From assembly GCF_009650765.1 (NCBI RefSeq), contig NZ_CP045740.1:7354001-7418000 (forward strand): 64,000 bases of DNA, in the 5' to 3' direction. The stretch is from Streptomyces sp. SUK 48 (GTDB taxonomy: Bacteria; Actinomycetota; Actinomycetes; Streptomycetales; Streptomycetaceae). A model generated the notes under the pieces. The model did not search any database, was not told where the DNA came from, and saw only the letters and a list, made by a program, of their open reading frames with translations. Shown here piece after piece: positions 3,300-39,155 of this stretch (positions are counted from its first letter, which is position 1; each line of letters starts with the position of its first letter). The position numbers and the translations under genes are program-made.

Positions 3300-3321
3300 A
3301 GACGGTCTCCAGGCTCGTAAA

Positions 3322-3340
3322 GTTAGGAAACTTTACTAAC
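3322..3340. promoter_or_regulatory. Palindromic operator, CsnR/ROK type
   Basis: The 19-bp imperfect palindrome GTTAGGAAACTTTACTAAC lies 23 bases before the GH2 start codon. It resembles the GTTAG...CTAAC sites bound by the ROK-family repressor CsnR in front of streptomycete chitosanase genes. It is AT-rich against a GC-rich background. The regulator gene is not in the window, so CsnR control is inference. Confidence 0.65.
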
Positions 3341-3473
3341 CGGGCTTAAGCTAGGTCGCCGTCCCAGGGCTGTCAACGACCGTCGCCCCAGCGCATGCTG
3401 AATATCCGTCAACCGCCGCACCCGGCGCGCGGATTCTCATAGGGTCCCCTCCCCGACGCCTCCAGGAGTCCCC

Positions 3474-4916
3474 ATGTCCGGTAGCCCGCCGCCCCCGGGC
3501 GGCCTCGTCCGCCGGGTCGGGCTGTTCCAGGCCACGGCCATCAACATGAGCCAGATGTGCGGCATCGGCCCGTTCGTCACCATCCCGCTGATGGTCGCCG
3601 CGTTCGGGGGTCCCCAGGCGGTCGTCGGGTTCGTCGCGGGCGCGGTGCTTGCGCTGTGCGACGGACTCGTCTGGGCCGAACTGGGCGCCGCGCTGCCCGG
3701 CTCCGGCGGCAGTTACGTCTATCTGCGCGAGGCGTTCCGGTACCGCACCGGCAGGCTGATGCCGTTCCTGTTCGTGTGGACGGCGATGCTGTTCGTGCCG
3801 CTGATCATGTCCACGGGCGTGGTCGGCTTCGTGCAGTACCTCGGCTATCTCCTGCCCGGCCTCGACGGCCCGGCCGGCGATCTGACCGGCCTCGGCGTCA
3901 TCGCCCTGGTCGTGCTGCTGCTGTGGCGCGGCATCGAGCACATCGCGCGGATCACGGCCGTGATGTGGACCGTGATGATCGCCTCGGTGGTCCTGGTGAT
4001 CGCCGCCGCCGCGACGGACTTCAGCCCGCGTCTCGCCTTCACCTACCCGGCGGGCGCCTTCGACCTGACCGGTGGTCACTTCTGGGCCGGCTTCGCCGCG
4101 GGCCTGACCATCGGCGTCTACGACTACCTCGGCTACAACACCACCGCCTACATGGGCGCCGAGATCAAGGACCCCGGCCGCGTGCTGCCGCGCTCCATCG
4201 TCTACTCGATCCTCGGCATCATGGCGATCTACCTGCTGCTCCAGATCGGCACGCTCGGCGTCGTCGACTGGCACCGGATGAGCGACCCGGGCGACATCGC
4301 GTCCACCTCGGTGGCCTCCGCGGTCCTGGAGCGGACCTGGGGCAGGGGCGCCGCGGACACGGTCACCGTGCTCATCCTGATCACCGCCTTCGCCTCCGTG
4401 TTCACGGGCCTGCTGGGCGGCTCCCGGGTGCCGTACGACGCCGCGCGCGACCGGGTCTTCTTCCGGCCGTACGCCAGGCTGCACCCCCGGCACCGCTTCC
4501 CCACGCTGGGCCTGGCGACCATGGGCGTGATCACCGCGGTCGGCTTCCTGATCGGCCGGCACACCGATCTGGCGACCCTGATCCAGCTGCTCACCACCGT
4601 GATGGTGATCGTGCAGGCGCTGGCCCAGATCGTCGCCCTGACGGTGCTGCGCGCCCGGCGGCCCGACCTGCGCCGCCCGTACCGCATGTGGCTCTACCCG
4701 CTGCCGTCCCTGGTGGCCTTCGCCGGCTGGTGCGTGATCTATGCCGGTGCCGACCGGAACTCACCGGGCCGGCACCCCGTCGAATGGTCCCTGGCCTGGC
4801 TGGTCCTCGGCTGCGCGGCCTTCCTGGTCTGGGCGCGGCGGGAGAAGGTCTGGCCGTTCGGGGCGAAGGAGACCGCCGAGGAGCGCCCGGCCGGACGGGA
4901 CGCCGAGACCGTATGA
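3474..4916 (+). CDS. APC-family amino acid permease
   Basis: This 480-residue polytopic membrane protein has about 12 predicted transmembrane segments. The N-terminal region is typical of the amino acid-polyamine-organocation superfamily (GLFQATAINMSQMCGIGPFV, then PGSGGSYVYLREAFR). Such carriers import amino acids or related amines by proton symport or antiport; the substrate cannot be told from sequence. The ATG at 3474 follows CCAGGAG at good spacing. The gene stands alone between the divergent GH2 gene and a downstream hairpin, and its last 25 residues are hydrophilic. Confidence 0.85.
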   Translation: MSGSPPPPGGLVRRVGLFQATAINMSQMCGIGPFVTIPLMVAAFGGPQAVVGFVAGAVLALCDGLVWAELGAALPGSGGSYVYLREAFRYRTGRLMPFLFVWTAMLFVPLIMSTGVVGFVQYLGYLLPGLDGPAGDLTGLGVIALVVLLLWRGIEHIARITAVMWTVMIASVVLVIAAAATDFSPRLAFTYPAGAFDLTGGHFWAGFAAGLTIGVYDYLGYNTTAYMGAEIKDPGRVLPRSIVYSILGIMAIYLLLQIGTLGVVDWHRMSDPGDIASTSVASAVLERTWGRGAADTVTVLILITAFASVFTGLLGGSRVPYDAARDRVFFRPYARLHPRHRFPTLGLATMGVITAVGFLIGRHTDLATLIQLLTTVMVIVQALAQIVALTVLRARRPDLRRPYRMWLYPLPSLVAFAGWCVIYAGADRNSPGRHPVEWSLAWLVLGCAAFLVWARREKVWPFGAKETAEERPAGRDAETV

Positions 4917-4949
4917 GCCTCGGGGAGCTATGATCCGAGCAGCGTCATG

Positions 4950-4988
4950 AGCCTCCCCGGCCGGACTTCAAGTCCGCCCGGGGAGGCT
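4950..4988 (+). terminator. Long hairpin that also contains the next gene's Shine-Dalgarno
   Basis: The arms 4950-4960 (AGCCTCCCCGG) and 4978-4988, plus an inner stem 4962-4968/4970-4976, form an 18-bp two-part hairpin with single-base mismatches and a 1-nt loop centred at 4969. It lies after the permease stop and could terminate it. The 3' arm holds GGGAGG (4981-4986), nine bases before the GNAT start at 4996, so folding would hide that ribosome binding site. Confidence 0.65.
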
Positions 4989-4995
4989 CTCGTTC

Positions 4996-5550
4996 ATGAC
5001 CGAGAACATGAACGAGAACGCGGACATGGACGAAGGCATGGGCGGGACGATGGCCGGGGACCTTCGGGTCCGCCCCGCGACACTCCACGACCGGCCCGCC
5101 GTCGAGCGGCTGTGGCTGATGTTCCGCCATGACATGTCCGAGTACCAGGGCGGACTGCCCGCGGCCGACGGCACGTTCCGCGGCGAGCGGGTGGCGGCCG
5201 CGTTCACCGGCGACGGCTGGGCGCCGTACCTGCTGACCTGCGGGGACCGGCTCGCCGGGTTCGCCTTCGTGCGGGGGCTCGACGGGCCGGTGCGGGTGCT
5301 GAACAGCTTCTTCGTGGTGCGGGGCGCCCGGCGCGGGGGTGTGGGGCTGCGCGCCGTACAGGAGGTGCTGCGGCGGCATCCGGGCCGCTGGGAGGTGGCC
5401 TTTCAGCGGGACAACACGGGCGGGGCGGCCTTCTGGCACCGGGTCGCGGAGAAGGTCGCGCCGGGGGAGTGGAGCCGCACCGAGCGGGCGGTGCCGGGGC
5501 GGCCGGAACTGCCCGGAGACCTGTGGCTGAGCTTCACCGTGAGGCGCTGA
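4996..5550 (+). CDS. GNAT-family N-acetyltransferase
   Basis: This 184-residue protein has a GNAT fold. The core begins near DLRVRPATLHDRPAVERLW and contains the acetyl-CoA-binding strand (VLNSFFVVRGARRGGVGLRA), a basic variant of the Q/R-x-x-G-x-G/A loop. Substrate is unknown. Its first ~15 residues are acidic and Met-rich (MTENMNENADMDEGMGG), so internal Met codons are alternative starts. I chose 4996 because GGGAGG lies nine bases upstream, inside the hairpin described above. Confidence 0.8.
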   Translation: MTENMNENADMDEGMGGTMAGDLRVRPATLHDRPAVERLWLMFRHDMSEYQGGLPAADGTFRGERVAAAFTGDGWAPYLLTCGDRLAGFAFVRGLDGPVRVLNSFFVVRGARRGGVGLRAVQEVLRRHPGRWEVAFQRDNTGGAAFWHRVAEKVAPGEWSRTERAVPGRPELPGDLWLSFTVRR

Positions 5551-27114: not shown

Positions 27115-28899
27115 TTGCGTAAACCGCACATACGCTCAGTGGCGATCGCGGTCGCGGTGGCGACCGCCGCCACGGGTCTGGCCGGTACGGCCTTCGCAGG
27201 TCCCACGACGGGGGAGGCGCGCTCCGTCGCGTCCGTCACCGACTCCGGCGCCGTGGTGACCGCGGCCCGCACCGCGGCCTTCGCGCACGCGTCCGCGACC
27301 GGTGTCTCCACGGGTGACGAACTCCAGGCCCAGGACGTCATGCTGGACCCCGAGGGCGCCCGCCACGTCCGCTTCGAGCGCACCCACAACGGCCTGCCGG
27401 TGCTCGGCGGCGACCTCGTGGTCCACCTCGACCACCAGCTCGCCTACACGGGCGTGACCCGCGCCGCCGGCCAGGCCGTCAAGCCGGCCGCCGCCGCCAA
27501 GGCCAAGCTGACCGCCGGTCAGGCCGCCGCCAAGGCCGCCCAGGCGGCCAAGGGCGAGGCCGGTACCGCCCAGCTCGTCGTGGATGCCCGCGACGGCGCC
27601 TCCGCGCTCGCCTACCAGGTGACCGTGACCGACCAGGACGGCACCAACACCGTCGTGGTCGACGCCGTCACCGGCAAGGTGCGCAGCAACACGCCCGACA
27701 GCGACCAGTTCCTGTCGCCGAAGCTCGTCAAGAGCCTCCAGAAGAGCGGCGTGACGGCCACCCCGGCCACGGGTGACGCCCGCGCCGCCGCCCTCGGCCG
27801 CGCCGGCGCCCCCACCGGCGCCAAGACGTCCTACCCGTCCGCCGCCAGCGGCACGGGCAAGACCCTCTACGTCGGCAGCGTCGGTCTCACCACCACGCAG
27901 ACCTCGCGCGGCCACTACCAGCTCGCCGACCCGAGCCGGTACGGCACCGAGGTGCGCGACGCCAAGGGCGGCAAGACGGAGAACTTCAACTCCGGTACGA
28001 AGTTCACCACCACCACCAACGTGTGGGGCAACGGCGCGACCTCCAACCGCGCCAGCGCCGCCGCGGACGCCCAGTACGGCATCACCAAGACGCTGGACTT
28101 CTACAAGAAGACCTTCGGCCGCAAGGGCATCGCCGACAACGGCAAGGCCGCCCACGGCCTGGTGCACTGGGGCAGCAAGGTCGCCAACGCCTTCTGGGAC
28201 CCGACCTGCACCTGCATGCTGTACGGCGACGGTGACGGGCAGACCTTCAAGAAGCCGCTGGTCGTCCTCGACGTCACCGGTCACGAGCTGACCCACGGCG
28301 TGGTGGACGCGACCGCCAAGCTGGAGCCGACCTACGTCGACGCGGACGGCAACCAGTACGGCGAGCCGGGTGCGCTCAACGAGTCGCTGGCGGACATCTT
28401 CGGCTCCAACGTCGAGTTCTACGCCAACAACAAGCAGGACACGCCCGACTACCTGATCGGCGAGAAGCTGGGCCTCGCGCAGAAGTTCCTGCGCCGCCTG
28501 GACCACCCCTCGCTGGACAAGCTCGAGGGCACGATCGACTACTGGACGCCGGACACCTACTACACCGAGGTGCACGCCGGTTCCGGTGTCTCGTCGCACG
28601 CCTACTACCTCCTCGCGGAGGGCAGCGGCAAGAAGACGATCAACGGCGTGGCGTACGACTCGCCGACGTACGACAAGTCCACGGTGAAGGGCATCGGCCG
28701 CACCAAGGCCACCGCCATCTTCTACCGTGCGCTGACCCGCTACATGGTGTCCACGACCGACTTCCACGACGCGCGTGTCGCGACGCTCCAGGCGGCCAAG
28801 GACCTGTACGGCGCGAACAGCACCGAGTACAAGACGGTGAACCAGGCGTGGGCGGCGGTCGATGTGACCGCCGCGAACGCGCCGGCCGCCAAGCACTGA
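27115..28899 (+). CDS. Secreted M4 (thermolysin-family) metalloprotease
   Basis: A 594-residue preproprotease. Residues 1-29 form a signal peptide with a basic n-region, ending T-A-F-A. A propeptide (FTP and PepSY-like parts, about 60-200) ends before a mature domain starting near residue 235. Zinc ligands are His390 and His394 with catalytic Glu391 (VTGHELTHGVVDA), and Glu423 (GALNESLADIFGS). There is no C-terminal add-on domain. The start is TTG 27115 with AGAAGGAA about 12 bases upstream; the downstream GTG would lose the basic n-region. A hairpin terminator follows. Confidence 0.9.
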   Translation: MRKPHIRSVAIAVAVATAATGLAGTAFAGPTTGEARSVASVTDSGAVVTAARTAAFAHASATGVSTGDELQAQDVMLDPEGARHVRFERTHNGLPVLGGDLVVHLDHQLAYTGVTRAAGQAVKPAAAAKAKLTAGQAAAKAAQAAKGEAGTAQLVVDARDGASALAYQVTVTDQDGTNTVVVDAVTGKVRSNTPDSDQFLSPKLVKSLQKSGVTATPATGDARAAALGRAGAPTGAKTSYPSAASGTGKTLYVGSVGLTTTQTSRGHYQLADPSRYGTEVRDAKGGKTENFNSGTKFTTTTNVWGNGATSNRASAAADAQYGITKTLDFYKKTFGRKGIADNGKAAHGLVHWGSKVANAFWDPTCTCMLYGDGDGQTFKKPLVVLDVTGHELTHGVVDATAKLEPTYVDADGNQYGEPGALNESLADIFGSNVEFYANNKQDTPDYLIGEKLGLAQKFLRRLDHPSLDKLEGTIDYWTPDTYYTEVHAGSGVSSHAYYLLAEGSGKKTINGVAYDSPTYDKSTVKGIGRTKATAIFYRALTRYMVSTTDFHDARVATLQAAKDLYGANSTEYKTVNQAWAAVDVTAANAPAAKH

Positions 28900-28916: not shown

Positions 28917-28943
28917 GGATGCCCCGCCCCGCGCGGGGCATCC
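28917..28943 (+). terminator. Hairpin terminator of the M4 protease gene
   Basis: GGATGCCCCGC (28917-28927) pairs perfectly with 28933-28943 across a 5-nt loop, 17 bases after the stop codon. The arm sequence GCGGGGCATCC recurs at about 28960. Confidence 0.75.
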
Positions 28944-29029
28944 GCATGTCCGGACCGGTGCGGGGCATCCGGACCTCTCGACACCGCCGCGATCATGGAC
29001 GGCGGCGAGCCGACGAGGGAGGGGAACGG

Positions 29030-30376
29030 ATGACGGCCCACCGAGGTGCGGACCGGGGCTGGTGGCGGGACCATGTCCTGCGTGGGACACGCGGATACGG
29101 CCGCGGGGGTCCGGCCGGCCGGCGACCGGCCGGGCGTCTCGTGAACGGCCGGTTCGGGCGCGGCTGCCGCGTCGCCGCCGCCCTGCTGACGGTCGCCGCC
29201 TGCCAGGCCGGGCCCACCCGCGCGGTCCTTCATCCGCCGAGTGCCCCGGGCCGCGCCTCTGGCGTGCTGACCTGGGCGGCGAGCGCCGAACGCATGGGCC
29301 CGGGCGTCGCGGGCGCGCAGTACCGGATGATCGTGCACCTCAGCGTCGGCGGCAGCGCGCCGCGCATCCGCTTCACCAACGCCTTCGGCGACCGGCCGCT
29401 GGTCCTCGACCACGTCTACGCGGGCCCGCGCGCCCGGGGCGCCGCCCTGCGCCCCGGCGGCAACCACGCCCTGACCTTCGGCGGCGCCCACCGCGTCACC
29501 GTCCCCGCCGGCTCCGTGGCCTGGAGCGATCCGCTGCCCGGCCGGGTGCCCGCCGGTGCCGATCTCGCGGTGAGCCTGCGCACCCCGCTGGCCGGGGGCC
29601 CGGCCAGCGGCCACGAGCTGGCGCTCCAGACGTCGTACACGGCGCTGGGCGGCGATCTGACCGCCGAGGACGGCGGCGCGCGCTGGACGCGGACCACCGG
29701 CGCCTGGTGGTACGTCGACGCCGTCGCCGTACGTCCCGACCGGCCGGCCGGCGGTGCCGTGGCCGCGCTCGGCGACTCCCTCACCGACGGCTGGCAGTCC
29801 ACCGCCGACCGCAACCGCCGCTGGCCCGACTACCTGGCCCGGCGCCTGCACGCGGCCCGAGGCGCCCTCCAGGGCGTGGCCGACGAGGGCATATCCGGCG
29901 ACAAGCTGCTCGCGGACGGCACCGGGGACGGCGCCGGGCAGAGCATGCTGCACCGGCTGGACCGGGATGTGCTGTCCCAGCCCGGGGTGCGCACCGTCGT
30001 CCTCTTCGCGGGCGTCAACGACCTCAAGGCCCACACCGGTGTCACCGCCGCCGAACTGATCGCCGGATACCGCACGTTGGTCCACCGCGCGCACGCGGCC
30101 CATCTGTGCGTGATGGGCGCCACCATCGGCCCGTTCAAGGGCTGGCCGGAGTGGGACCACGCCGCCGAGGCCGTACGCCGCGAGGTCAACCACCACCTGC
30201 GCACGAGCGGGGACTTCGACGCCGTCGCCGACTTCGACCGGACGCTGCGCGACCCCCGCGACCCCGAGCGCCTGCGGCCGGGGTACGACGGCGGCGACCA
30301 TCTGCACCCCGGCGACCGGGGCATGCGCGCCCTCGCCGGCACCGTCGACCTGAAGCGGCTCGACTGCCGGCGCTGA
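29030..30376 (+). CDS. Exported SGNH/GDSL esterase
   Basis: A 448-residue GDSL-type esterase. The catalytic Ser is in AALGDSLTDGW, the block III Asn is in FAGVNDL, and the C-terminal Asp/His pair is in GGDHLHPGDRG. A beta-rich domain (about 90-265) precedes the SGNH core. Near residue 77 a hydrophobic stretch ends in a lipobox-like LLTVAAC, so it may be a lipoprotein. If so, the in-frame GTG at 29141 would give a more normal signal peptide; 29030 has the better Shine-Dalgarno (GGAGGGGAA). Substrate unknown. Confidence 0.82.
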   Translation: MTAHRGADRGWWRDHVLRGTRGYGRGGPAGRRPAGRLVNGRFGRGCRVAAALLTVAACQAGPTRAVLHPPSAPGRASGVLTWAASAERMGPGVAGAQYRMIVHLSVGGSAPRIRFTNAFGDRPLVLDHVYAGPRARGAALRPGGNHALTFGGAHRVTVPAGSVAWSDPLPGRVPAGADLAVSLRTPLAGGPASGHELALQTSYTALGGDLTAEDGGARWTRTTGAWWYVDAVAVRPDRPAGGAVAALGDSLTDGWQSTADRNRRWPDYLARRLHAARGALQGVADEGISGDKLLADGTGDGAGQSMLHRLDRDVLSQPGVRTVVLFAGVNDLKAHTGVTAAELIAGYRTLVHRAHAAHLCVMGATIGPFKGWPEWDHAAEAVRREVNHHLRTSGDFDAVADFDRTLRDPRDPERLRPGYDGGDHLHPGDRGMRALAGTVDLKRLDCRR

Positions 30377-30399: not shown

Positions 30400-30750
30400 T
30401 CACCCCAGGGTCCGCGCCCAGTCCCGCGGCACCCGCCCCGCGGGGCCCGGCACCGGCTGGTCGGCCGGATGCCCGGCCGGCGGGGCGAGTGCGGGCCCCT
30501 CGGCGCTCAGCTCCTCGGTGGCGAAGTTCCAGAACCACGCCTCGTCCGGCTCGAAGCTGCGGATCACCGGATGCCCGGTGGCCCGGTAGTGCGCGGTGGC
30601 GTGCTTGGCGGGCGAGTCGTCGCAGCAGCCGATGTGCCCGCACTGGGCGCAGCGCCGCAGATGGAACCACCACCCGCCCGCCGCCTCGCACTCCACGCAA
30701 CCGGTGCCGCTCGGCGGGACGTTCGTGTCGATGCCCTCGGTGCCGCTCAT
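30400..30750 (-). CDS. ZnF-UBP domain protein
   Basis: The 116-residue protein is almost entirely a UBP-type zinc finger. Candidate ligands are Cys18 and Cys21 (GCVECEAAGG), Cys34 and Cys37 (RRCAQCGHIGCC), Cys42/Cys43, His50, His54 and His60 (ATAHYRATGHPV). In eukaryotes this fold binds the free C-terminal Gly-Gly of ubiquitin; bacterial versions have no settled role. Its ATG overlaps the kinase stop by ATGA (30747-30750), so the genes are translationally coupled. It is the last gene of a three-gene operon. The C-terminal 40 residues are Pro/Gly-rich. Confidence 0.88.
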   Translation of the reverse strand: MSGTEGIDTNVPPSGTGCVECEAAGGWWFHLRRCAQCGHIGCCDDSPAKHATAHYRATGHPVIRSFEPDEAWFWNFATEELSAEGPALAPPAGHPADQPVPGPAGRVPRDWARTLG

Positions 30751-32234
30751 ACGGCCTCCTCCGATCGTTCGCCGGCCGGTCCGGGCGGTCCGGCCGGCTC
30801 GGGTGGTCCGGCGGTCAGCGGCAGCAGCACCTGGAAGCGGGTGTCACCGGGCTCCGAGTCGACCCGCAGCGTGCCGTGGTGCTTGTCGACGACGATCCGC
30901 CAGGAGATGTCCAGACCGAGCCCGGTGCCCTCGCCGACCGGCTTGGTGGTGAAGAACGGGTCGAAGATCCGGTCCTCGATCTCCGCCGGGATGCCCGGCC
31001 CGGTGTCCCGGAACTCCACCAGCACCCGGTCGTGGTCGCGCGCGGTGCGCACCGTCAGGGTGCCCTCGCCGCCCGAACTCCGCATCGCGGAGACGGCGTT
31101 GTCGATCAGGTTGGTCCACACCTGGTTCAGCTCCGCCGGATAGGCGGGCACCGGCGGGAGCGTCCGGTCGTACTCCTTGACCACCCGGATGCCGGAGCCG
31201 AACTTGGCCGACAGCATCAGCAGCGTGCTCTCCAGGAGTTCGTGCACGTCCACCGCGCGGTACGGCGCCCGGTCCAGCTGCGCGTACTGCTTGGCCGCGT
31301 CCACCAGATGCGAGATGCGGGCGGTGGAGTCCTCGATCTCGGTCATCAGCAGCTCGGTCTCCACCGTGTAGTTGAGCCAGCCGATCGCACCCGGCAAAAT
31401 CTCCTCGTCCACGGCCGCCGCGACCTGCTCCAGCCAGTCGGCGTCGAGTCCCGCCTGGACGAAGGTCGGTGCCAGCCGCCAGCCGTCCGCGATGCCGTGG
31501 TCCTCCAGCCAGTCCCCGAGCAGATCCTCCCGGTCGGCGGCCTCCAGCGGACCGAGCGCCGGGGCCTTCGCCACCCGCTCGGCGGTGCGCTCCTGGATCT
31601 CGACCAGGCTCGCCAACGCGTCCCGGGAGAACGGCCCTTCGGCGATCACGGCCAGCTTGCGCCGCATCTTCGCCACCCGCTCCCGCAGCGTGGCGGTGGC
31701 CCGCACGGCCGCGGCCGCCGGGTTGTTCAGCTCATGGGTGAGCCCCGCCGACAGCGAGCCGAGCGCCAGCAGCCGCTCCCGCTGCCCGATCGCCGCCTGA
31801 GTGGTCTTCGAGCCGAAGAACAGGCCCTCCAGCAGATGCACCGCCATCGGGAACCACGCGTGCATCACGTCCGCGAACAGATCGGCGGGCAGCACGAAGA
31901 ACCGCGTCGGCTCGGTGGCCCGCAGCGAGTTGGTGTACACCTGCCGCACCCGGTCGCCCAGATACGCCTGCATGGCGCCGCCGTACACCCCGCGCTGCGA
32001 GGTCCGGGTGACCTCCACGTCGTCCGCGCCGACCCGGCGCGAGATCACCACCGTCCCCTCGACCATCACGAAGAAGCAGGTCGCGGGAGAGCCCTCGGTG
32101 TACACCGGACCCGGCGGGAACAGCTCCACCCGCCCCTCGGCGCACAGCCGCCCCAGCTGCTCGGGGGCGAGCTTCTCGAAGAGGAACAGCGACCGGATCT
32201 CCTTCGGGTCGCACGGCATGATCTGCCCGCTCAT
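30747..32234 (-). CDS. Cyclic-nucleotide-type domain fused to a histidine kinase
   Basis: A 495-residue soluble protein. Residues about 10-130 are a Crp-like sensor domain (IRSLFLFEKLAPEQL, TCFFVMVEGTVVISRRVGAD), with a poorly conserved phosphate cassette (YGGAMQAYLGD). The kinase part has the phosphoacceptor His167 in LSAGLTHELNNPAAA and ATP-binding motifs NLIDNAVSAM, DTGPGIP and GEGTGLGLDIS. No receiver domain is attached, but the upstream overlapping gene encodes one. ATG 32234 overlaps that gene's stop (ATGA), and its own stop overlaps the ZnF-UBP start. It probably phosphorylates the neighbouring flavoprotein. Confidence 0.9.
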   Translation of the reverse strand: MSGQIMPCDPKEIRSLFLFEKLAPEQLGRLCAEGRVELFPPGPVYTEGSPATCFFVMVEGTVVISRRVGADDVEVTRTSQRGVYGGAMQAYLGDRVRQVYTNSLRATEPTRFFVLPADLFADVMHAWFPMAVHLLEGLFFGSKTTQAAIGQRERLLALGSLSAGLTHELNNPAAAAVRATATLRERVAKMRRKLAVIAEGPFSRDALASLVEIQERTAERVAKAPALGPLEAADREDLLGDWLEDHGIADGWRLAPTFVQAGLDADWLEQVAAAVDEEILPGAIGWLNYTVETELLMTEIEDSTARISHLVDAAKQYAQLDRAPYRAVDVHELLESTLLMLSAKFGSGIRVVKEYDRTLPPVPAYPAELNQVWTNLIDNAVSAMRSSGGEGTLTVRTARDHDRVLVEFRDTGPGIPAEIEDRIFDPFFTTKPVGEGTGLGLDISWRIVVDKHHGTLRVDSEPGDTRFQVLLPLTAGPPEPAGPPGPAGERSEEAV

Positions 32235-33940
32235 GACTGCTCCAGATACCGGTGGACGAGCATGACGGCCATCGCACCCTCGCCGACGGCGGAGGCGACG
32301 CGCTTCGCGGACTCGGCGCGCGCGTCGCCCGCCACGAACACGCCGGGCACGCTGGTCTCCAGGTGGTAGGGCGGCCGGTCCAGCTCCCAGCCGGCCGGGG
32401 GCCGCCCGTCGGCGGTCAGATCCGGCCCGGCGAGGATGAAGCCGCGCTCGTCGCGCCGCACGCCCTCGCCGAGCCAGTCGGTCAGCGGGGCCGCGCCGAT
32501 GAACACGAACATCCACTGGGCGTCGACCCGTTCGGTCTCCCCGGTCGCCGTGTCACGCAGGGTCAGCCGCTCCAGCCGCTCCGCGCCGTGGGCCGCGTCC
32601 ACCACCGTGCGGCAGCGCACCTCGATGTTCGGCGCCTCGGCGATCTGCTGGACCAGGTAGTACGACATCGACGCCGCCAGATCCGCGCCGCGCACCAGCA
32701 GCGTCACCGACTTGGCGCCCCGGGCGAGGTACATCGCCGCCTGACCCGCCGAGTTGGCGCCGCCGACGATGTACACGTCCTGGCCCTGGCAGCCGGCCGC
32801 CTCGGTCAGCGCGGAGCCGTAGTACACCCCGCAGCCGGTGAGGTCCGCGCAGCCCTGGGCGTCGAGTTGCCGGTACTGCACGCCGGTCGCCAGGATGACG
32901 CTGTGCGCGGCGATCGCCGTACCGTCCGCGAACCGTACGACCCGGGCGGCGCCACATGTCTCCAGGGCCGTCACCTCGCGCGCGGTCAGGATCTCGGCAC
33001 CGAACCGGGCCGCCTGCCGCCGCGCCCGGTCGGTGAGCTGGGCGCCGGAGACACCGTCCGGGAAGCCCAGGTAGTTCTCGATGCGGGAACTCTGCCCGGC
33101 TTGCCCGCCGGTCGCCGAGCGCTCCACCAGCACCGTGCGCAGCCCCTCCGAGGCCCCGTACACGGCCGCGCCGAGCCCGGCCGGGCCGCCGCCGATCACC
33201 ACCAGGTCGTAGAAGTCGGCCGTGGGTGTCGTGGCGAGGCCCACCCGCGCGGCCAGTTCGGGTGCCTCGGGCTCGACCAGCGCCGAGCCGTCCGGGGTGA
33301 TCACCACCGGCAGCCGCTGCCCGTCCAGCCCGGCCGCCGCCAGCAGCCGCTGCCCCTCCGGCTCCTCCACGGAGTACCAGCGGTACGGCACCTGGTTGCG
33401 GGCCAGGAACTCCCGCACCCGCGACGACGGCGCCGACCAGCGGTGCCCGACCACCTTGGTGCTCGGCACCGGCTTGTGGTCGCTGGCGCGCCACGCCGTC
33501 AGGAGATCGTCCAGCACCGGATAGAGCTTCTCCTCCGGCGGGTCCCAGGGCTTGAGCAGATAGTGGTCGAGGTCCACCACGTTGATCGCGTCGATCGCCG
33601 CGTTCGTGTCCGCGTACGCGGTCAGCAGCACCCGCCGCGCCCCCGGGTACACGTCGAGCGCCTGCTCCAGGAACTCGATGCCGTTCATCCGGGGCATCCG
33701 GTAGTCGGCCAGGATCACCGCCACCAGATCGCCGCGCAGCTTCAGCTCGCGCAGCGCCTCCAGCGCGGACGGCCCGGACTCGGCGCGCACGATCCGGTAC
33801 GACGCTCCGTAGCGGCGCCTGAGATCACGGGCGACGGCGCGGGAGACCCCTGGGTCGTCGTCCACGGTCAGGATGACGGTCCGCGTCGCGTCGGCGGCCG
33901 GTGCCGTCGGGGGCGGTGTCCTGGGCGCGGCCTGTGTCAT
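32231..33940 (-). CDS. Receiver / glutaredoxin-like / thioredoxin-reductase-like fusion flavoprotein
   Basis: The 569-residue protein has three parts. Residues 20-150 are a response-regulator receiver with acid pocket D27-D29, phosphoacceptor Asp79 (ILADYRMPRMNG), Thr107 and Lys130. Residues 160-236 look glutaredoxin-like (KVVGHRWSAPSSRVREFL, then LPVVITPDGSAL), with serines where the CxxC would be. From 245 a thioredoxin-reductase fold has FAD loop GGGPAG (250-255), NAD(P) loop GGANSAG (393-399) and VFVAGDARAE. The CATC site is replaced by VYYGSAL. ATG 33940 has GGGAG five bases upstream. First gene of the operon, divergent from a Usp gene. Confidence 0.88.
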   Translation of the reverse strand: MTQAAPRTPPPTAPAADATRTVILTVDDDPGVSRAVARDLRRRYGASYRIVRAESGPSALEALRELKLRGDLVAVILADYRMPRMNGIEFLEQALDVYPGARRVLLTAYADTNAAIDAINVVDLDHYLLKPWDPPEEKLYPVLDDLLTAWRASDHKPVPSTKVVGHRWSAPSSRVREFLARNQVPYRWYSVEEPEGQRLLAAAGLDGQRLPVVITPDGSALVEPEAPELAARVGLATTPTADFYDLVVIGGGPAGLGAAVYGASEGLRTVLVERSATGGQAGQSSRIENYLGFPDGVSGAQLTDRARRQAARFGAEILTAREVTALETCGAARVVRFADGTAIAAHSVILATGVQYRQLDAQGCADLTGCGVYYGSALTEAAGCQGQDVYIVGGANSAGQAAMYLARGAKSVTLLVRGADLAASMSYYLVQQIAEAPNIEVRCRTVVDAAHGAERLERLTLRDTATGETERVDAQWMFVFIGAAPLTDWLGEGVRRDERGFILAGPDLTADGRPPAGWELDRPPYHLETSVPGVFVAGDARAESAKRVASAVGEGAMAVMLVHRYLEQS

Positions 33941-34177: not shown

Positions 34178-35047
34178 ATGACACGGGCGATCACGGCAGG
34201 GCTCGACGGCACGCAGGAGAGCCTGGCCGCGCTGGACTGGGCGGCCAGGGAGGCCGTACGCCGGGGGCTGCCCCTGCGGGTCCTGCACGCGTGGCACCAC
34301 GCCGAGAAGCTCGCGGGAGCCGCCGACCGGGACACCCAGCGGGGGTGGGCCGAGGAGGGCGTCGCACAGGCGGTGCGCCAGGTCGCCGAGCGGCATCCGG
34401 AGCTCACGGTGAGCGTCGACGTGGCCGAGGGGGACGCCGGCGAGGTACTGGGCCGCGCGGCCCGGGACGCTCAGATGCTGGTCCTGGGCTCGCGCGGGCA
34501 CGGCCCGGTCGTCGGCTTCCTGCTGGGCTCGGTGGGCCGGCGCGTCATCGCCGAGGCCGCCCGGCCCGTGGTGCTCGTGCGCGCCGGCGACCGCGCCGCC
34601 CTGGAGGCCGCCGGGCGCGAGGTGGTGGTCGGCCAGGACGGCGACGCCGAGGACAGCGCGGCCGCGCTGCGCTTCGCCTTCGAGACGGCGGCGGCCCGCG
34701 GCGCCACCGTGCGCGCCATACGGGCCTGGACCCTGCCGCCGGTCTTCGCCTACAGCCCCGGCTCGCTCAGGCTGCTGGACGAGGCCGGGGGCCTGGAGCC
34801 GTACGAGAAGCAGGCGCTGGCCGATGCGCTGCGGCCCTGGCGCGAGCGGTTCCCCGACGTGCCGGTGGCCGAGCAGGTGGAGATGGGCAGCGCGGGGCAG
34901 GTGCTGCTGTCGCTCGTCGGCCGCGCCCAGCTGATGGTCGTCGGCCGCCGGGCCCGCCGCACCGCCGTGGGCGCCCGCATCGGCTCGGTCGCGCACGGGG
35001 TGCTGCACCACGCGGACTGCCCGGTGGCGGTGGTCCCGCACGACTGA
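34178..35047 (+). CDS. Universal stress protein, two Usp domains
   Basis: The 289 residues form two UspA folds: 1-140 with the ATP-loop pattern GSRGHGPVVGFLLGSVGRRV, and 145-289 with VVGRRARRTAVGARIGSVAH. The first motif agrees with G-2x-G-9x-G-S ATP-binding Usps; the second is degenerate. Tandem Usps are common in actinobacterial dormancy and redox responses. GAGGAGG lies upstream of ATG 34178. It is divergent from the flavoprotein-kinase operon across 237 bases, which suggests shared regulation but does not prove it. Confidence 0.9.
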   Translation: MTRAITAGLDGTQESLAALDWAAREAVRRGLPLRVLHAWHHAEKLAGAADRDTQRGWAEEGVAQAVRQVAERHPELTVSVDVAEGDAGEVLGRAARDAQMLVLGSRGHGPVVGFLLGSVGRRVIAEAARPVVLVRAGDRAALEAAGREVVVGQDGDAEDSAAALRFAFETAAARGATVRAIRAWTLPPVFAYSPGSLRLLDEAGGLEPYEKQALADALRPWRERFPDVPVAEQVEMGSAGQVLLSLVGRAQLMVVGRRARRTAVGARIGSVAHGVLHHADCPVAVVPHD

Positions 35048-35054
35048 CCCGGCG

Positions 35055-35828
35055 TCAACCCGCCTTGGACGTGCGGGACTTACCGGTGGCCCGGTCCCGG
35101 GCCTGTTCGGCGGCGGCGCGCACCGCGCCCCGGTGGACCGGTCCGTGGCCGGGCAGCAGGGTGTCGCCGTCGAGCCCGGCGATCAGGTCGAGGGAGGCCA
35201 CGACCCGGGCGCGGTCGTGGTCGAAGAAGCCGGGCAGCAGTTGCGGCCCCTTGGTCCAGGACACGGCGTGCCCGCTGACCAGGGCGTCCCCGGAGATCAC
35301 GATGCCGGTCTCCGGCAGGTGGTAGACGCAGTGCCCGTCGGTGTGGCCGGGGGTGTGCACGGGCACCGGGCGGCCCGGCAGGTCGAGCGCGCCCGCTCCG
35401 GGGAACGGCTCCGGCGCGGTGACCGGGTTGTGCTCCATGCCGCCCACCTTGATGACATGCGCGGCCCACGGCAGCATGCCCGGCCGCCAGACGTTGCGGA
35501 CGACGTCGCCGAGGGTGGCCTGGTGCAGGAACTCCCGCCGGGCGTGCGGGACTTCGGCCGGGTGGAGGTAGACCGGCGTGCCGTACGTCGAGCGCAGGTA
35601 CTCGGCCGAGCCCAGATGGTCGTTGTGCGCGTGGGTGATCAGCACGGCGGAGACCGCCTCCGGTGAACCGCCCACCGCGGCGAGGGACTCCAGGATTCCC
35701 GGCCGGTCCCCGGGATACCCGGTGTCGATCAGGGTGAGGGCGTCCCCGTCCTTCAGGATCACCCAGTTGACGTTGTTGCCGTGCACCAGGTAGGTGCCGT
35801 CGGCGACTTGGTGTACCTCTGCCCGCAT
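35055..35828 (-). CDS. MBL-fold metallohydrolase
   Basis: A 257-residue metallo-beta-lactamase-fold hydrolase. The binuclear metal site is visible as H-x-H-x-D-H (LITHAHNDHLGSAEYL), His in VHTPGHTDGHCVYHL, Asp in VISGDALVSGH and the last His in LLPGHGPVH. This resembles glyoxalase II-like or lactonase-like members; no substrate is implied. The frame is open upstream but ATG 35828 follows GGAGAGACC. It ends eight bases from the convergent Usp stop codon. Confidence 0.87.
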   Translation of the reverse strand: MRAEVHQVADGTYLVHGNNVNWVILKDGDALTLIDTGYPGDRPGILESLAAVGGSPEAVSAVLITHAHNDHLGSAEYLRSTYGTPVYLHPAEVPHARREFLHQATLGDVVRNVWRPGMLPWAAHVIKVGGMEHNPVTAPEPFPGAGALDLPGRPVPVHTPGHTDGHCVYHLPETGIVISGDALVSGHAVSWTKGPQLLPGFFDHDRARVVASLDLIAGLDGDTLLPGHGPVHRGAVRAAAEQARDRATGKSRTSKAG

Positions 35829-35917
35829 GGTCTCTCCGCGCCCGAGTGCCAATGATCTTCGAGGAGACAGCCAACCAGATCCGCAACCGTGGGGCGCAAG
35901 GGGGCGGGCGGGACCGC

Positions 35918-36547
35918 TCAGCGCACGCCGTGCGGGCGGAACTGCACGCTGATCCGCGGTCCCGCCGCCCGAGCCGTCTTGGGCACGCAGTGCTCCCAGG
36001 TGCGCTGGCAGGCCCCGCCCATCACGATCAGATCGCCGTGCCCGAGCGGCCGCCGTACCACCGGGCCGCCCCCGCCCGCCGGGCGCAGCAGCAGATCGCG
36101 GGGCTCGCCCACGGAGAGGATCGCGACCATGGTGTCCTCGCGGGCGCCCTTCCCGGACCGGTCGCCGTGCCAGGCCACGCTGTCCCGGCCGTCGCGGTAG
36201 TAGCACAGCCCGGCGGTGGTGAACGGCTCGCCCAGCTCCCTCGCGTAGTGCCGGGACAGGGCGGCGCGGGCCTCGTCCAGGACGGGGTGGGGGAGGGGGT
36301 CCGCGGCGCCGTAGAAGGCCAGCAGGCGGGGTACGGCGACGACGTTGTCGTACATCTTCCGCCGCTCGGCGCGCCAGGGGACCTCCGCCGCGAGCCGTTC
36401 GAACAGGGCGTCCGCGCCGGTCAGCCAGCCGGGCAGCACGTCGATCCAGGCGCCGGCGCCGAGCACGGTCCGGCGCAGTCCGCGCAGGGGGCCCGGGCGC
36501 AGCTCGTCGGTCTGGTCGAACAGGGAGCCCTGGAGGTGCGTGGCCAT
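35918..36547 (-). CDS. alkB: AlkB-type Fe(II)/2-oxoglutarate dioxygenase
   Basis: A 209-residue AlkB-family protein that would reverse alkylation damage on DNA or RNA bases by oxidative demethylation. Iron ligands are in WHGDRSG (H-x-D) and TWEHCVPK (His), and the 2-oxoglutarate-binding Arg is in PRISVQFR. YYRDGRDSVAWH and DLIVMGG are typical of bacterial members. ATG 36547 is preceded by AGGAG at a slightly long distance. It is divergent from a TetR regulator, and the shared region holds tandem repeats and a large palindrome, so joint regulation is possible. Confidence 0.88.
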   Translation of the reverse strand: MATHLQGSLFDQTDELRPGPLRGLRRTVLGAGAWIDVLPGWLTGADALFERLAAEVPWRAERRKMYDNVVAVPRLLAFYGAADPLPHPVLDEARAALSRHYARELGEPFTTAGLCYYRDGRDSVAWHGDRSGKGAREDTMVAILSVGEPRDLLLRPAGGGGPVVRRPLGHGDLIVMGGACQRTWEHCVPKTARAAGPRISVQFRPHGVR

Positions 36548-36590
36548 GGAGCCAGCGTACTCCTGATTCGAAAATACGTTCCCATCCGAT

Positions 36591-36660
36591 CGGGCGAGGC
36601 ACGGCGAGGCACGGCGAGGCGCGGCGATGCCGGGTGGTCTCGGGTGGCGCTCGGCGATGC
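36591..36660 (+). repeat. Degenerate 10-bp tandem repeat
   Basis: Four adjoining decamers (CGGGCGAGGC, ACGGCGAGGC twice, GCGGCGATGC) at 36591-36630 are followed by three more diverged 10-bp units up to 36660. The array lies between the alkB and TetR genes, upstream of the operator. Confidence 0.65.
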
Positions 36661-36679
36661 CCGCTGGTGCCTCGGCCCT

Positions 36680-36718
36680 TTCGATGCATCGGTGTATCGG
36701 ATACATTCGCGTATCGAA
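36680..36718. promoter_or_regulatory. Nested palindromic operator, TetR type
   Basis: TGTATC-G-GATACA (36693-36705) is a perfect 13-bp palindrome. It sits exactly at the centre of outer arms TTCGAT (36680-36685) and ATCGAA (36713-36718). It is AT-rich and lies 13 bases before the TetR start codon, fitting autorepression. Confidence 0.75.
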
Positions 36719-36730
36719 GGGGGTGCCGTC

Positions 36731-37426
36731 ATGCAGGAGTCCGCCAGACGCGTCACCCGGCGCCGGGCCGAGACCCGTGCCCGGCTGCTCGACGCCGCGT
36801 TCGGAGTGTTCGCGGCCAAGGGGTTCGGACGGGTCTCCATCGAGGAGGTCTGCGAGGCGGCCGGGTACAGCCGGGGCGCCTTCTACTCGAACTTCGCCAC
36901 CCTGGACGAGCTGTTCTTCGCCCTCTACCAGGAGCGCGCCGACCTCATCGCCGCCCAGGTCGCGGACGCCCTCGCCGAGGACGGCCCCGGCCTCGACGTA
37001 CCGGCCGCCGTGGACCGCGTCACCGAGGTGCTGCTGCTCGACGTGGACTGGCTGCTGGTGAAGACCGACTTCCTGGTGCACGCGGCCCGCGACCCGGAGG
37101 TCGCCCGTGTCCTGCTCGGCCACCGCGCCCGGCTCCGGGAGGCCGTCGCCGACCGCCTCTTCCGGTCCCGGGGCCACACCGGACTCCCCGCCGTGCTCGG
37201 TGACACGGCCGGCGCCGCGCACGCCGTGGTCGCGGCCTACGACGGCGTCACCACCCAGCTGCTGCTGGACAAGGACATCGAGCACGCGCGGAGCTGGCTC
37301 AAGCAGCTGCTCACCGCGCTGCTCACGGACGGCGGCGGGCGCGCCGGCCACCCCCTCGACCCCGCGCTGACCCCTCGGCCATGCGCTGACCCCTTGGTCA
37401 CGCACGGATTCCCGGCCACGTACTGA
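36731..37426 (+). CDS. TetR-family transcriptional regulator
   Basis: A 231-residue TetR regulator. The N-terminal helix-turn-helix domain (RAETRARLLDAAFGVFAAKG, then VSIEEVCEAAGYSRGAFYSNF) is followed by an all-helical ligand domain. The ATG at 36731 lies 13 bases after the nested palindrome. The C-terminal 30 residues (HPLDPALTPRPCADPLVTHG) look repetitive at the DNA level and may be a recent extension. The downstream FAD dehydrogenase gene starts 56 bases on, so both are probably cotranscribed and the dehydrogenase substrate may be the inducer. Confidence 0.9.
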   Translation: MQESARRVTRRRAETRARLLDAAFGVFAAKGFGRVSIEEVCEAAGYSRGAFYSNFATLDELFFALYQERADLIAAQVADALAEDGPGLDVPAAVDRVTEVLLLDVDWLLVKTDFLVHAARDPEVARVLLGHRARLREAVADRLFRSRGHTGLPAVLGDTAGAAHAVVAAYDGVTTQLLLDKDIEHARSWLKQLLTALLTDGGGRAGHPLDPALTPRPCADPLVTHGFPATY

Positions 37427-37481
37427 CCCCTCCACCACGAACTGACTCTCGACAACGCACTGAGGAAGGAACCTCCACGCC

Positions 37482-39155
37482 ATGGACGCGGACGTCATCG
37501 TCGTCGGAGCGGGCCTCGCCGGCCTGGTCGCGGCTCATGAACTCACCAGCCGGGGACGCCGGGTGGCCCTGGTCGACCAGGAGAACGCCGCCAACCTCGG
37601 CGGCCAGGCGTACTGGTCCTTCGGCGGCCTCTTCCTCGTGGACTCGCCCGAACAGCGCCGGATCGGCGTCAAGGACTCCTTCGAACTGGCCTGGAGCGAC
37701 TGGCGCGGCAGCGCGCGGTTCGACCGGATCGAGGACGAGGACTCCTGGGCGGTGCGCTGGGCCCGCGCCTATGTGGAGTTCGCGGCCGGCGAGAAGCGGT
37801 CCTGGCTCCAGGGGCACGGCATCGAGCTGCTGCCCACCGTCGGCTGGGCCGAGCGCGGCGACCTCAGGGCCGACGGGCACGGCAACTCCGTGCCCCGCTT
37901 CCACATCGCCTGGGGCACCGGCACCGGAGTCGTCGAACCCTTCGTCCGCCACGCCCGGCAGGCCGCCCGGGACGGACTGCTGACCTTCCACCACCGCCAC
38001 CAGGTGGACGACCTGGTCATCGAGGACGGCACCGCCCGCGGTGTGCGCGGCACGGTGCTCGCCCCCGACGACGCCCCGCGCGGCGTCGCCTCCAGCCGCG
38101 AGCGCGTCGGCGACTTCGAACTCACCGCCCAGGCCGTCGTCGTCACCACCGGCGGCATCGGCGCGAACCACGACATCGTGCGCCGCTACTGGCCCGAGCG
38201 GCTCGGCACGCCCCCCGCCGAGATGGTCACCGGCGTCCCCGCCCACGTGGACGGCCGGATGCTCGACATCAGCGCGGCGGCGGGCGTCCGCCTGGTCAAC
38301 CGGGACCGGATGTGGCACTACACGGAGGGCCTCCAGAACTGGAACCCGGTCTGGCCCGGCCACGGCATCCGCATCCTGCCCGGCCCCTCCGCCGTCTGGC
38401 TGGACGCCCTCGGCCGCCGGCTGCCCGACCCCTGCCTGCCCGGGTACGACACCCTCGGCACGCTCAAGTACCTGCGCACCACCGAGGACATCGCGGGCTA
38501 CGACCACTCCTGGTTCCTCCTCACCCGGAAGATCATCGAGAAGGAGTTCGCGCTCTCCGGCTCCGAGCAGAACCCCGACATCACCGCCAAGGACCGCAAG
38601 GCCGTGGTGCGCAGCCGGCTCGTCGGCAAGGGCGCGCCGGCGCCGGTGCGGGCGTTCCTCGACAAGGGCGCCGACTTCGTCACCGCGGACAGCCTGGAGC
38701 GGCTGGTCGAGAAGATGAACGCTCTCACCGGGCAGCCGCTGCTGGACGCGGCCGGGGTGCGCCGCCAGATCGAGGCCCGCGACCTCCAGATGACCAACCC
38801 GTACAGCAAGGACTCCCAGGTCCAGGGCATCCGCAACGCCCGCCGCTACCTCGGCGACCGGCTCGGCCGGGTGGCCGCGCCGCACCGCCTCCTGGACCCG
38901 GCCGCGGGCCCGCTGATCGGCGTACGGATGCGTGTGCTGACCCGCAAGACGCTCGGCGGCATCCAGACCGACCTCGACTCACGCGCCCTCGGCGCCGACG
39001 GGACGCCGATCGAGGGGCTGTACGCGGCCGGCGAGGTGGCCGGGTTCGGCGGCGGCGGGGTGCACGGCTACAACTCCCTGGAGGGCACCTTCCTCGGCGG
39101 CTGCCTCTTCTCGGGCCGCGCCGCGGGCCGGCACGCGGCCCGGCACACCGGCTGA
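37482..39155 (+). CDS. FAD-binding dehydrogenase, ketosteroid-dehydrogenase-like
   Basis: A 557-residue flavoprotein of the fumarate reductase/3-ketosteroid 1-dehydrogenase superfamily. The FAD dinucleotide motif opens the protein (MDADVIVVGAGLAGLVAAHE), and the C-terminal FAD-binding GLYAAGEVAGFGGGGVHGYN matches streptomycete FAD-binding dehydrogenases. QAYWSFGGLFLVDSPEQRRI is characteristic of this subgroup. The substrate is unknown; a hydrophobic ketone or steroid-like compound is only a guess. ATG 37482 follows GAGGAAGGAAC. TetR control is likely from the operon layout. Confidence 0.87.
   Translation: MDADVIVVGAGLAGLVAAHELTSRGRRVALVDQENAANLGGQAYWSFGGLFLVDSPEQRRIGVKDSFELAWSDWRGSARFDRIEDEDSWAVRWARAYVEFAAGEKRSWLQGHGIELLPTVGWAERGDLRADGHGNSVPRFHIAWGTGTGVVEPFVRHARQAARDGLLTFHHRHQVDDLVIEDGTARGVRGTVLAPDDAPRGVASSRERVGDFELTAQAVVVTTGGIGANHDIVRRYWPERLGTPPAEMVTGVPAHVDGRMLDISAAAGVRLVNRDRMWHYTEGLQNWNPVWPGHGIRILPGPSAVWLDALGRRLPDPCLPGYDTLGTLKYLRTTEDIAGYDHSWFLLTRKIIEKEFALSGSEQNPDITAKDRKAVVRSRLVGKGAPAPVRAFLDKGADFVTADSLERLVEKMNALTGQPLLDAAGVRRQIEARDLQMTNPYSKDSQVQGIRNARRYLGDRLGRVAAPHRLLDPAAGPLIGVRMRVLTRKTLGGIQTDLDSRALGADGTPIEGLYAAGEVAGFGGGGVHGYNSLEGTFLGGCLFSGRAAGRHAARHTG

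Follow-up and report, generated by a model that had tools for sequence, protein, structure and literature searches.

The window analyzed here is a stretch of 64,000 nucleotides from Streptomyces sp. SUK 48 (contig NZ_CP045740.1, positions 7,354,001 to 7,418,000; 7.354-7.418 Mb of a single-contig genome of 8.34 Mb). It contains an operon of three minus-strand genes that encode, in this order, a flavoprotein with a response regulator receiver at its N terminus, a histidine kinase, and a small protein with a UBP-type zinc finger (ZnF). The operon is real and conserved and is probably a signaling unit, and we lean toward reading it as a two-component system of soluble proteins that acts through a redox flavoprotein and not through a transcription factor.

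The flavoprotein gene (32231..33940) encodes 569 amino acids with a receiver at residues 23-135, a degenerate glutaredoxin (Grx)-like domain at about residues 160-235, and an FAD/NAD(P)H core of the thioredoxin reductase (TrxR) fold at residues 244-566; its Pfam matches are Response_reg (23-135, 53.8 bits) and Pyr_redox_2 (244-555, 108.7 bits). The kinase gene (30747..32234, 495 amino acids) combines a degenerate cyclic nucleotide-binding domain (CNBD) at about residues 12-125, an H-box, a putative insertion of about 100 amino acids in the DHp domain, and a HATPase_c domain at residues 367-474 (88.1 bits). Its cNMP_binding match (44-124) is marginal at 29.1 bits against a cutoff of 27.5, and Pfam HisKA (PF00512) finds no match in this kinase at an E value of 0.001. 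The third gene (30400..30750, 116 amino acids) matches zf-UBP at residues 18-79 with 47.8 bits (cutoff, 22.7). Pfam and NCBIfam agree on the receiver, the pyridine nucleotide oxidoreductase, the cNMP-type domain, the HATPase, and zf-UBP, and a PADLOC search of the three proteins for defense systems returned no match.

A first-pass annotation of the bare sequence had described three genes coupled by ATGA at both junctions, a kinase without a receiver of its own, an intact receiver on the flavoprotein, and His167 and Asp79 as the phosphorylated residues. The coordinates and sequence confirm the coupling (four-base overlaps at 32231..32234 and 30747..30750, both on the minus strand), the Pfam domains agree with the placement of the receiver, and both residues hold at the codon level.

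Conservation of the operon and predicted pairing of kinase and receiver

We assessed conservation in two collections. The named-genome loci are the 80 top-ranked among 583 that were confirmed, and 46 of these 80 are from Streptomyces; the phylum set comprises 149 actinobacterial genomes searched with the flavoprotein, the kinase, and zf-UBP, with 38 wider flavoprotein stretches chosen from the matches for locus analysis. The kinase directly follows the flavoprotein in all 80 named loci and the ZnF is present in 70, so that the order of all three genes is kept more often than chance would allow. A four-base start-stop overlap is possible between flavoprotein and kinase in 59 of the 80 loci and between kinase and ZnF in 63 of the 70 that have the ZnF. 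Among the matches listed, the closest flavoprotein is that of Streptomyces griseofuscus (95%). A locus from a close relative of S. coelicolor (L129) suggests that S. coelicolor may have the operon as well.

In the phylum set, the kinase is found at an E value of ≤1e-50 in 18 of the 149 genomes. It adjoins every one of the 18 full-length flavoproteins with at least 52% identity, which come from 16 genomes including that of the window, and in G042 and G141, also kinase bearing, pieces of the two genes adjoin each other by their coordinates. A co-occurrence search in actinobacterial genomes had been set beforehand as a test of the first-pass annotation, and it shows the gene order conserved far outside this strain. 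Beyond the actinobacteria, Deinococcus aetherius, the Burkholderiaceae Caballeronia and Paraburkholderia, and the cyanobacterium Gloeothece have the pair but not the ZnF, and a kinase-like gene of Nostoc edaphicum lies about 2.6 kb away with other genes between. On plasmids, where we compared 60 of 110 records with the flavoprotein and 60 of 87 with the ZnF, the two genes lie at most about 1.5 kb apart in all 19 records common to both compared sets.

The residues that phosphotransfer would use are intact on both sides. The receiver has an acidic pocket, a phosphoacceptor Asp, a Thr/Ser, and a Lys, represented by D27 and D28, Asp79 (codon 33704..33706, minus strand), T107, and K130, each of which is present in all 78 readable named rows. 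The kinase has the H-box His and HATPase_c expected of a two-component kinase, and its phosphodonor His167 (codon 31734..31736, minus strand; motif HELNNP) is conserved without exception, both in the 79 readable named rows and in a set of 33 kinases. The full D/D/T/K set is present in all 18 kinase-linked phylum loci, one of which has Glu for the first Asp, and in none of the 14 phylum loci that have an N terminus in the receiver position and no kinase match, 10 of which still give a receiver match by tblastn. This co-degeneration (18/18 versus 0/14) supports phosphotransfer from kinase to receiver as the favored prediction: receivers have kept their residues next to a kinase and lost them in the loci without one.

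Several observations weigh against this picture. The phylum loci were hand-picked from flavoprotein matches, two of the 14 kinase-less loci (L052 and L067) have less than 1 kb of downstream sequence, and the nine receiver-degenerate proteins in the tree form one clade, so that the loss of kinase and Asp may represent one or a few events, not fourteen. In favor of the pairing, pairwise distances of flavoproteins and kinases correlate at r=0.94 over 23 pairs, a value as high as which none of 2000 permutations reached, but operon co-inheritance alone would yield such a correlation and the value carries no species-tree control. The contig that holds one 50% flavoprotein match (G028:C731) gives no match to the kinase. 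Of the 18 phylum genomes with the kinase, 6 have the ZnF beside the pair (the window, G023, G128, G100, G097, and G045), and the ZnF is absent from the four non-actinobacterial pairs examined (L076, L077, L079, and L083). Since the 80 named loci are the most similar ones, their ZnF rate is biased upward; 6/18 is the fairer rate for the phylum and is itself lowered by short contigs. The ZnF is thus absent often enough that it is not essential to the core.

Thiol centers and proposed output of the flavoprotein

The flavoprotein retains the fold and the FAD and NAD(P)H motifs of a thioredoxin reductase. In an alignment of 37 family members with three Grx-TrxR relatives, D539 and the glycines of the FAD and NAD(P)H motifs (G250, G252, and G393) are invariant. 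Both CxxC centers are absent from all 37 family members and kept in all three relatives, and the redox-active CxxC is present in all 11 TrxB proteins compared. In the window, the CxxC site of the Grx-like domain reads Ser169-Ala-Pro-Ser172 (33425..33436, minus strand) when aligned to the CxxC-bearing Grx-TrxR proteins L063, L072, and L073. The site of the TrxR CATC reads Gly375-Ser-Ala-Leu378 (32807..32818, minus strand) within a conserved GVYYGSALTEA, a site that is mostly GVYYGxA..EA across the family; the TrxB encoded elsewhere in the same genome keeps CATC. In a wider set that includes rows outside this alignment, CxxC is absent in 34 and present in 5, and among the 78 readable rows of the named loci the first position of the Grx site is never Cys and the second is Cys in 5. 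The Grx-like domain between receiver and core, its cysteines gone, is an addition to the first-pass annotation; it scores 13.6 bits against Glutaredoxin, below the cutoff of 22.9, and two relatives with the same domain arrangement that retain CxxC score 41.5 and 40.2 bits, above it.

In a tree of the core, a branch supported at 100/100 separates the 37 CxxC-less proteins from the 11 TrxB and three Grx-TrxR proteins. By its sequence, then, the flavoprotein is a pseudo-reductase and not a thioredoxin reductase: with both dithiol relays lost, the core would lack the usual means of reducing thioredoxin or glutaredoxin. The family is large, with at least 8000 scored candidates at an E value of ≤1e-60, of which CxxC was checked in aligned subsets. 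The earlier proposal of a phosphorelay that ends on an enzyme stands in so far as the intact receiver is joined to no DNA-binding domain, and the word enzyme has to be qualified, given that both TrxR-like thiol centers are gone.

Alongside these observations of domains, gene order, conservation, double CxxC loss, and receiver-kinase co-occurrence, we propose the following route. The kinase, built on an old cyclic nucleotide-type sensor domain, would autophosphorylate at His167, and the phosphate would pass to Asp79 of the flavoprotein-fused receiver. Phosphorylation may shift the receiver against the TrxR-fold core. The core could be a redox switch that works through NAD(P)H and flavin, or it could be an oxidoreductase whose acceptor is not a thiol. 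The ZnF may act as a third subunit or adaptor that docks the kinase or the flavoprotein to a partner, probably independently of ubiquitin, and in this actinobacterial lineage the sensor domain would probably have exchanged cyclic nucleotide binding for redox or metal sensing through Cys8, Cys31, and usually Cys53. We put forward more tentatively the full picture of a widespread kind of two-component system that delivers a redox state as its output, in which a phospho-gated, thiol-dead TrxR fold reports or spends NAD(P)H solely through its flavin, with a CNBD-derived cysteine sensor in actinobacteria and a ubiquitin-independent UBP tether. If true, a large family partly named thioredoxin-disulfide reductase would consist of pseudo-reductases under phosphorelay control, bacteria would have a signaling route that leads to redox chemistry at a flavin instead of to DNA, and the UBP domain, familiar from deubiquitinases, would have a ubiquitin-free role in bacteria.

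Input, direction, and partners of the proposed pathway

The kinase departs from the classical form in two places. In all 33 kinases compared, 201-224 residues separate His167 from Asn379, about twice the classical spacing. The PDB kinases listed mostly align from profile position 277 or later, with one from 205. The long stretch would represent a conserved insertion that splits the dimerization domain, located after the H-box helix and ahead of the second helix of DHp (about residues 185-290, some 100 residues; 31365..31682, minus strand). No Pfam family matches the insertion above cutoff; PspA_IM30, at 17.7 bits against a cutoff of 33.9, was taken as coiled-coil noise.

The second departure concerns the cyclic nucleotide pocket, which the first-pass annotation had taken to set the input. 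The phosphate-binding cassette of cyclic nucleotide domains has the motif GE...R[ST]A. The corresponding cassette of the window kinase is RGVYGGAMQAYLGDRVRQVYTNSLRA, in which the expected Glu and Arg of GE..R[ST]A are absent, and the claim is not borne out: the position of the Glu (87) is Ala in 74, Ser in 5, and a gap in 1 of the 80 named loci (Ala or Ser in 79 of 79 readable rows), and a canonical cassette occurs in 3 of 33 kinases (L048, L049, and L050). It is nevertheless possible, if doubtful, that kinase activity is still set by cAMP or a different cyclic nucleotide bound at the CNBD, which would make this a cyclic nucleotide-dependent redox signaling system of the kind predicted for bacterial ZF-UBP domains. 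The cNMP_binding match does exceed its cutoff, three kinases of the family have the canonical cassette, and in L060 and L061 a cNMP domain holds the position of the receiver on the same TrxR-like core with the ZnF adjoining, so that a cyclic nucleotide may still be the input in that branch. The noncanonical cassette of the window and its near-absence of canonical counterparts speak against such binding here.

Cysteines offer another candidate input. Of the 79 readable named rows, 78 have Cys8, 78 have Cys31, and 70 have Cys53, and these residues probably form a redox or metal sensor in this actinobacterial lineage, as judged from their conservation. Against a more general role, the three are found in 6, 7, and 8 of 20 phylum kinases, respectively, and the scarcity of Cys8 and Cys31 there marks them as a clade trait.

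Signals could also run in the opposite direction, with the flavoprotein as a redox sensor whose FAD/NAD(P)H state governs how its receiver accepts or drains phosphate and with another receiver or a ZnF-bound partner as the output. A core that retains its flavin and nucleotide sites without thiol chemistry is sensor-like, and one genome (G130) has three tandem kinase paralogues behind a single flavoprotein, a hub-like arrangement (L043, G130:C106:46000-58000, 856-5161, minus strand). We regard this reversal as unlikely: the N-terminal receiver occupies the place that an input-type cNMP domain holds in L060 and L061, which suggests that the receiver is an input to the core and not an output.

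A divergent gene for a tandem universal stress protein (Usp) lies upstream at 34178..35047 on the plus strand, with two Usp stretches by Pfam. It had led the first-pass annotation to suggest a stress or dormancy setting, and it would fit an operon linked to the Usp gene under a DevR/OsdR-type regulator; the same operon-Usp order is found in S. fungicidicus. We consider such a setting improbable and count the Usp gene as context outside the conserved unit. It is present upstream in 30 of the 80 named loci, or in 28 if the count is restricted to the 77 with enough downstream sequence. All of these loci are from Streptomyces, and 8 of the 80 have less than 2.5 kb of upstream sequence. A DevR/OsdR-like box matches 9 of 85 upstream stretches with two mismatches, none better, and shuffled sequences give 176 of 1700 with two or fewer. 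Beyond the operon genes and shadow frames, a crude gene caller found no neighbor shared by more than three genus labels, and thus no recurrent neighbor that would point to a substrate. With the Usp gene upstream in Streptomyces loci alone and no DevR-like operator that stands out, the stress or dormancy claim is weak and unproven.

Other genes flank the operon. Next to the Usp gene, the long minus-strand frames 35055-36689 and 35918-37498 contain a metallo-beta-lactamase (MBL)-fold hydrolase and an AlkB-type 2-oxoglutarate-Fe(II) oxygenase; the same MBL/AlkB-type order near Usp occurs in S. fungicidicus, where it includes an additional DUF4032 gene. A TetR-type regulator (about 36785-36925, plus strand, in frame 35846-37426; Pfam TetR_N) is oriented divergently to the AlkB-type gene. 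On the other side, an M4 (thermolysin) metallopeptidase (27115-28899, plus strand) is followed by a GDSL-like lipase/acylhydrolase (28919-30376, plus strand). In Tsukamurella tyrosinosolvens (L075, 8547-10255), an S-(hydroxymethyl)mycothiol dehydrogenase and an MBL-fold hydrolase come directly after the ZnF gene, and a link to thiol metabolism is possible in that lineage.

The ZnF has the zinc ligands and fold of a ZnF-UBP domain. In 69-70 of the 70 named loci that have it, it retains its Cys/His ligands together with W27/W28, HLRR, D44, S46-P47, E67-P68, and W72. The closest solved structure by sequence is PDB 2ida (E value, 1.5e-26), which is entered as "Hypothetical protein" and which we take to be an RPA1320-type ZnF-UBP. 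The Arg of the ubiquitin pocket is missing: His39, present in 70 of 70 named loci, aligns to the Arg that follows CG in USP5 chains, presumably R221, which contacts the ubiquitin C terminus. This substitution makes it very improbable that the ZnF reads the C terminus of a ubiquitin-like modifier such as Pup and so links the operon to protein tagging, for all that the zf-UBP fold and the three tryptophans are preserved. Plasmids of Rhizobium, Burkholderia, and Nostoc, among others, also carry relatives of the ZnF, and these lineages are not known to have Pup, which lowers the odds further.

Its other associations point to a different function. G097 has a single open reading frame with cNMP, HATPase_c, and zf-UBP (HisKA at 18.0 bits; cutoff, 26.9); the place of this fusion, the C terminus of the kinase, is where the ZnF would be predicted to dock. 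In Deinococcus sp. KNUC1210 (L080) zf-UBP forms the end of a Na+/H+ exchanger with a TrkA_N domain. From the kinase fusion and from the fusion to and neighborhood of exchangers, zf-UBP would behave as a shared adaptor or regulatory tail, and the exchangers suggest that it regulates cation/proton antiporters too. The host genome contains two more zf-UBP genes. The second (L069, G000:C1:2965000-2974000; 4112-4567, plus strand) lies opposite a Na+/H+ exchanger frame (2656-4476, minus strand), and the third (L068, G000:C1:204000-212000; about 3808-4026, minus strand) has no flavoprotein or kinase of the operon family within the 8 kb around it.

Least credible of all is a true thioredoxin or glutaredoxin reductase under phosphorylation control, as the database name of several close relatives and the best family match (TIGR01292 thioredoxin reductase, 216.7 bits) would have it, given that this score falls short of the cutoff of 343.45, that both CxxC centers are missing, that Cys384 near the lost TrxR site (78 of 78 readable named rows) is single and not kept family-wide, and that the genome encodes a regular TrxB with an adjoining thioredoxin gene.

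Comparison with known systems

Burroughs, Iyer, and Aravind are said to have described, in Mol Biosyst in 2011, bacterial ZF-UBP domains in a novel cyclic nucleotide-dependent redox signaling system. As reported, those systems resemble the operon of the window in the linkage of zf-UBP to a cNMP-type domain, in the redox setting, and in independence from ubiquitin. They differ from it in that here the cNMP-type domain resides on a histidine kinase and a receiver on the flavoprotein, the pocket looks unable to bind a cyclic nucleotide, and both dithiols are lost. The operon has the zf-UBP/cNMP-type linkage in a redox setting that reportedly defines those systems, and for the window kinase the dependence on a cyclic nucleotide is doubtful.

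Two database names cover related proteins. The NCBI name "fused response regulator/thioredoxin-disulfide reductase" belongs to the same family as the flavoprotein, and the sequence contradicts the disulfide reductase activity that it implies. Proteins named "cyclic nucleotide-binding domain-containing thioredoxin-disulfide reductase" have a related Grx-like/TrxR-like core (46-49% identity to the window flavoprotein over about 72%) and the same partner ZnF; L060 and L061, which are of this type, have the cNMP domain in place of the receiver, lack both CxxC centers, and show no kinase. PDB 2ida, the nearest structure to the third gene, adds no function through its entry name.

Response regulators with a predicted thioredoxin reductase domain have been described from archaeal metagenomes (J Bacteriol 2018, PMC5847659). 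They are alike in combining a receiver with a predicted TrxR output, and the passages that describe them mention no kinase/ZnF operon.

Among the titles and opening lines of abstracts returned by searches of the open-licence PMC literature, no publication describes this operon. The first-pass statement that no characterized system of this form is known accordingly holds for experiments in the open literature, and it has to be amended for the NCBI names and for the computational prediction reportedly made in 2011. The system was apparently predicted earlier in outline and is uncharacterized in the literature searched. Set beside these precedents, what our reading of the sequences puts together, beyond the literature searched, is the clade-wide loss of both thiol centers, a degenerate cyclic nucleotide pocket with lineage-specific cysteines, the decay of receivers that lack a kinase, and the fusion of kinase and ZnF.

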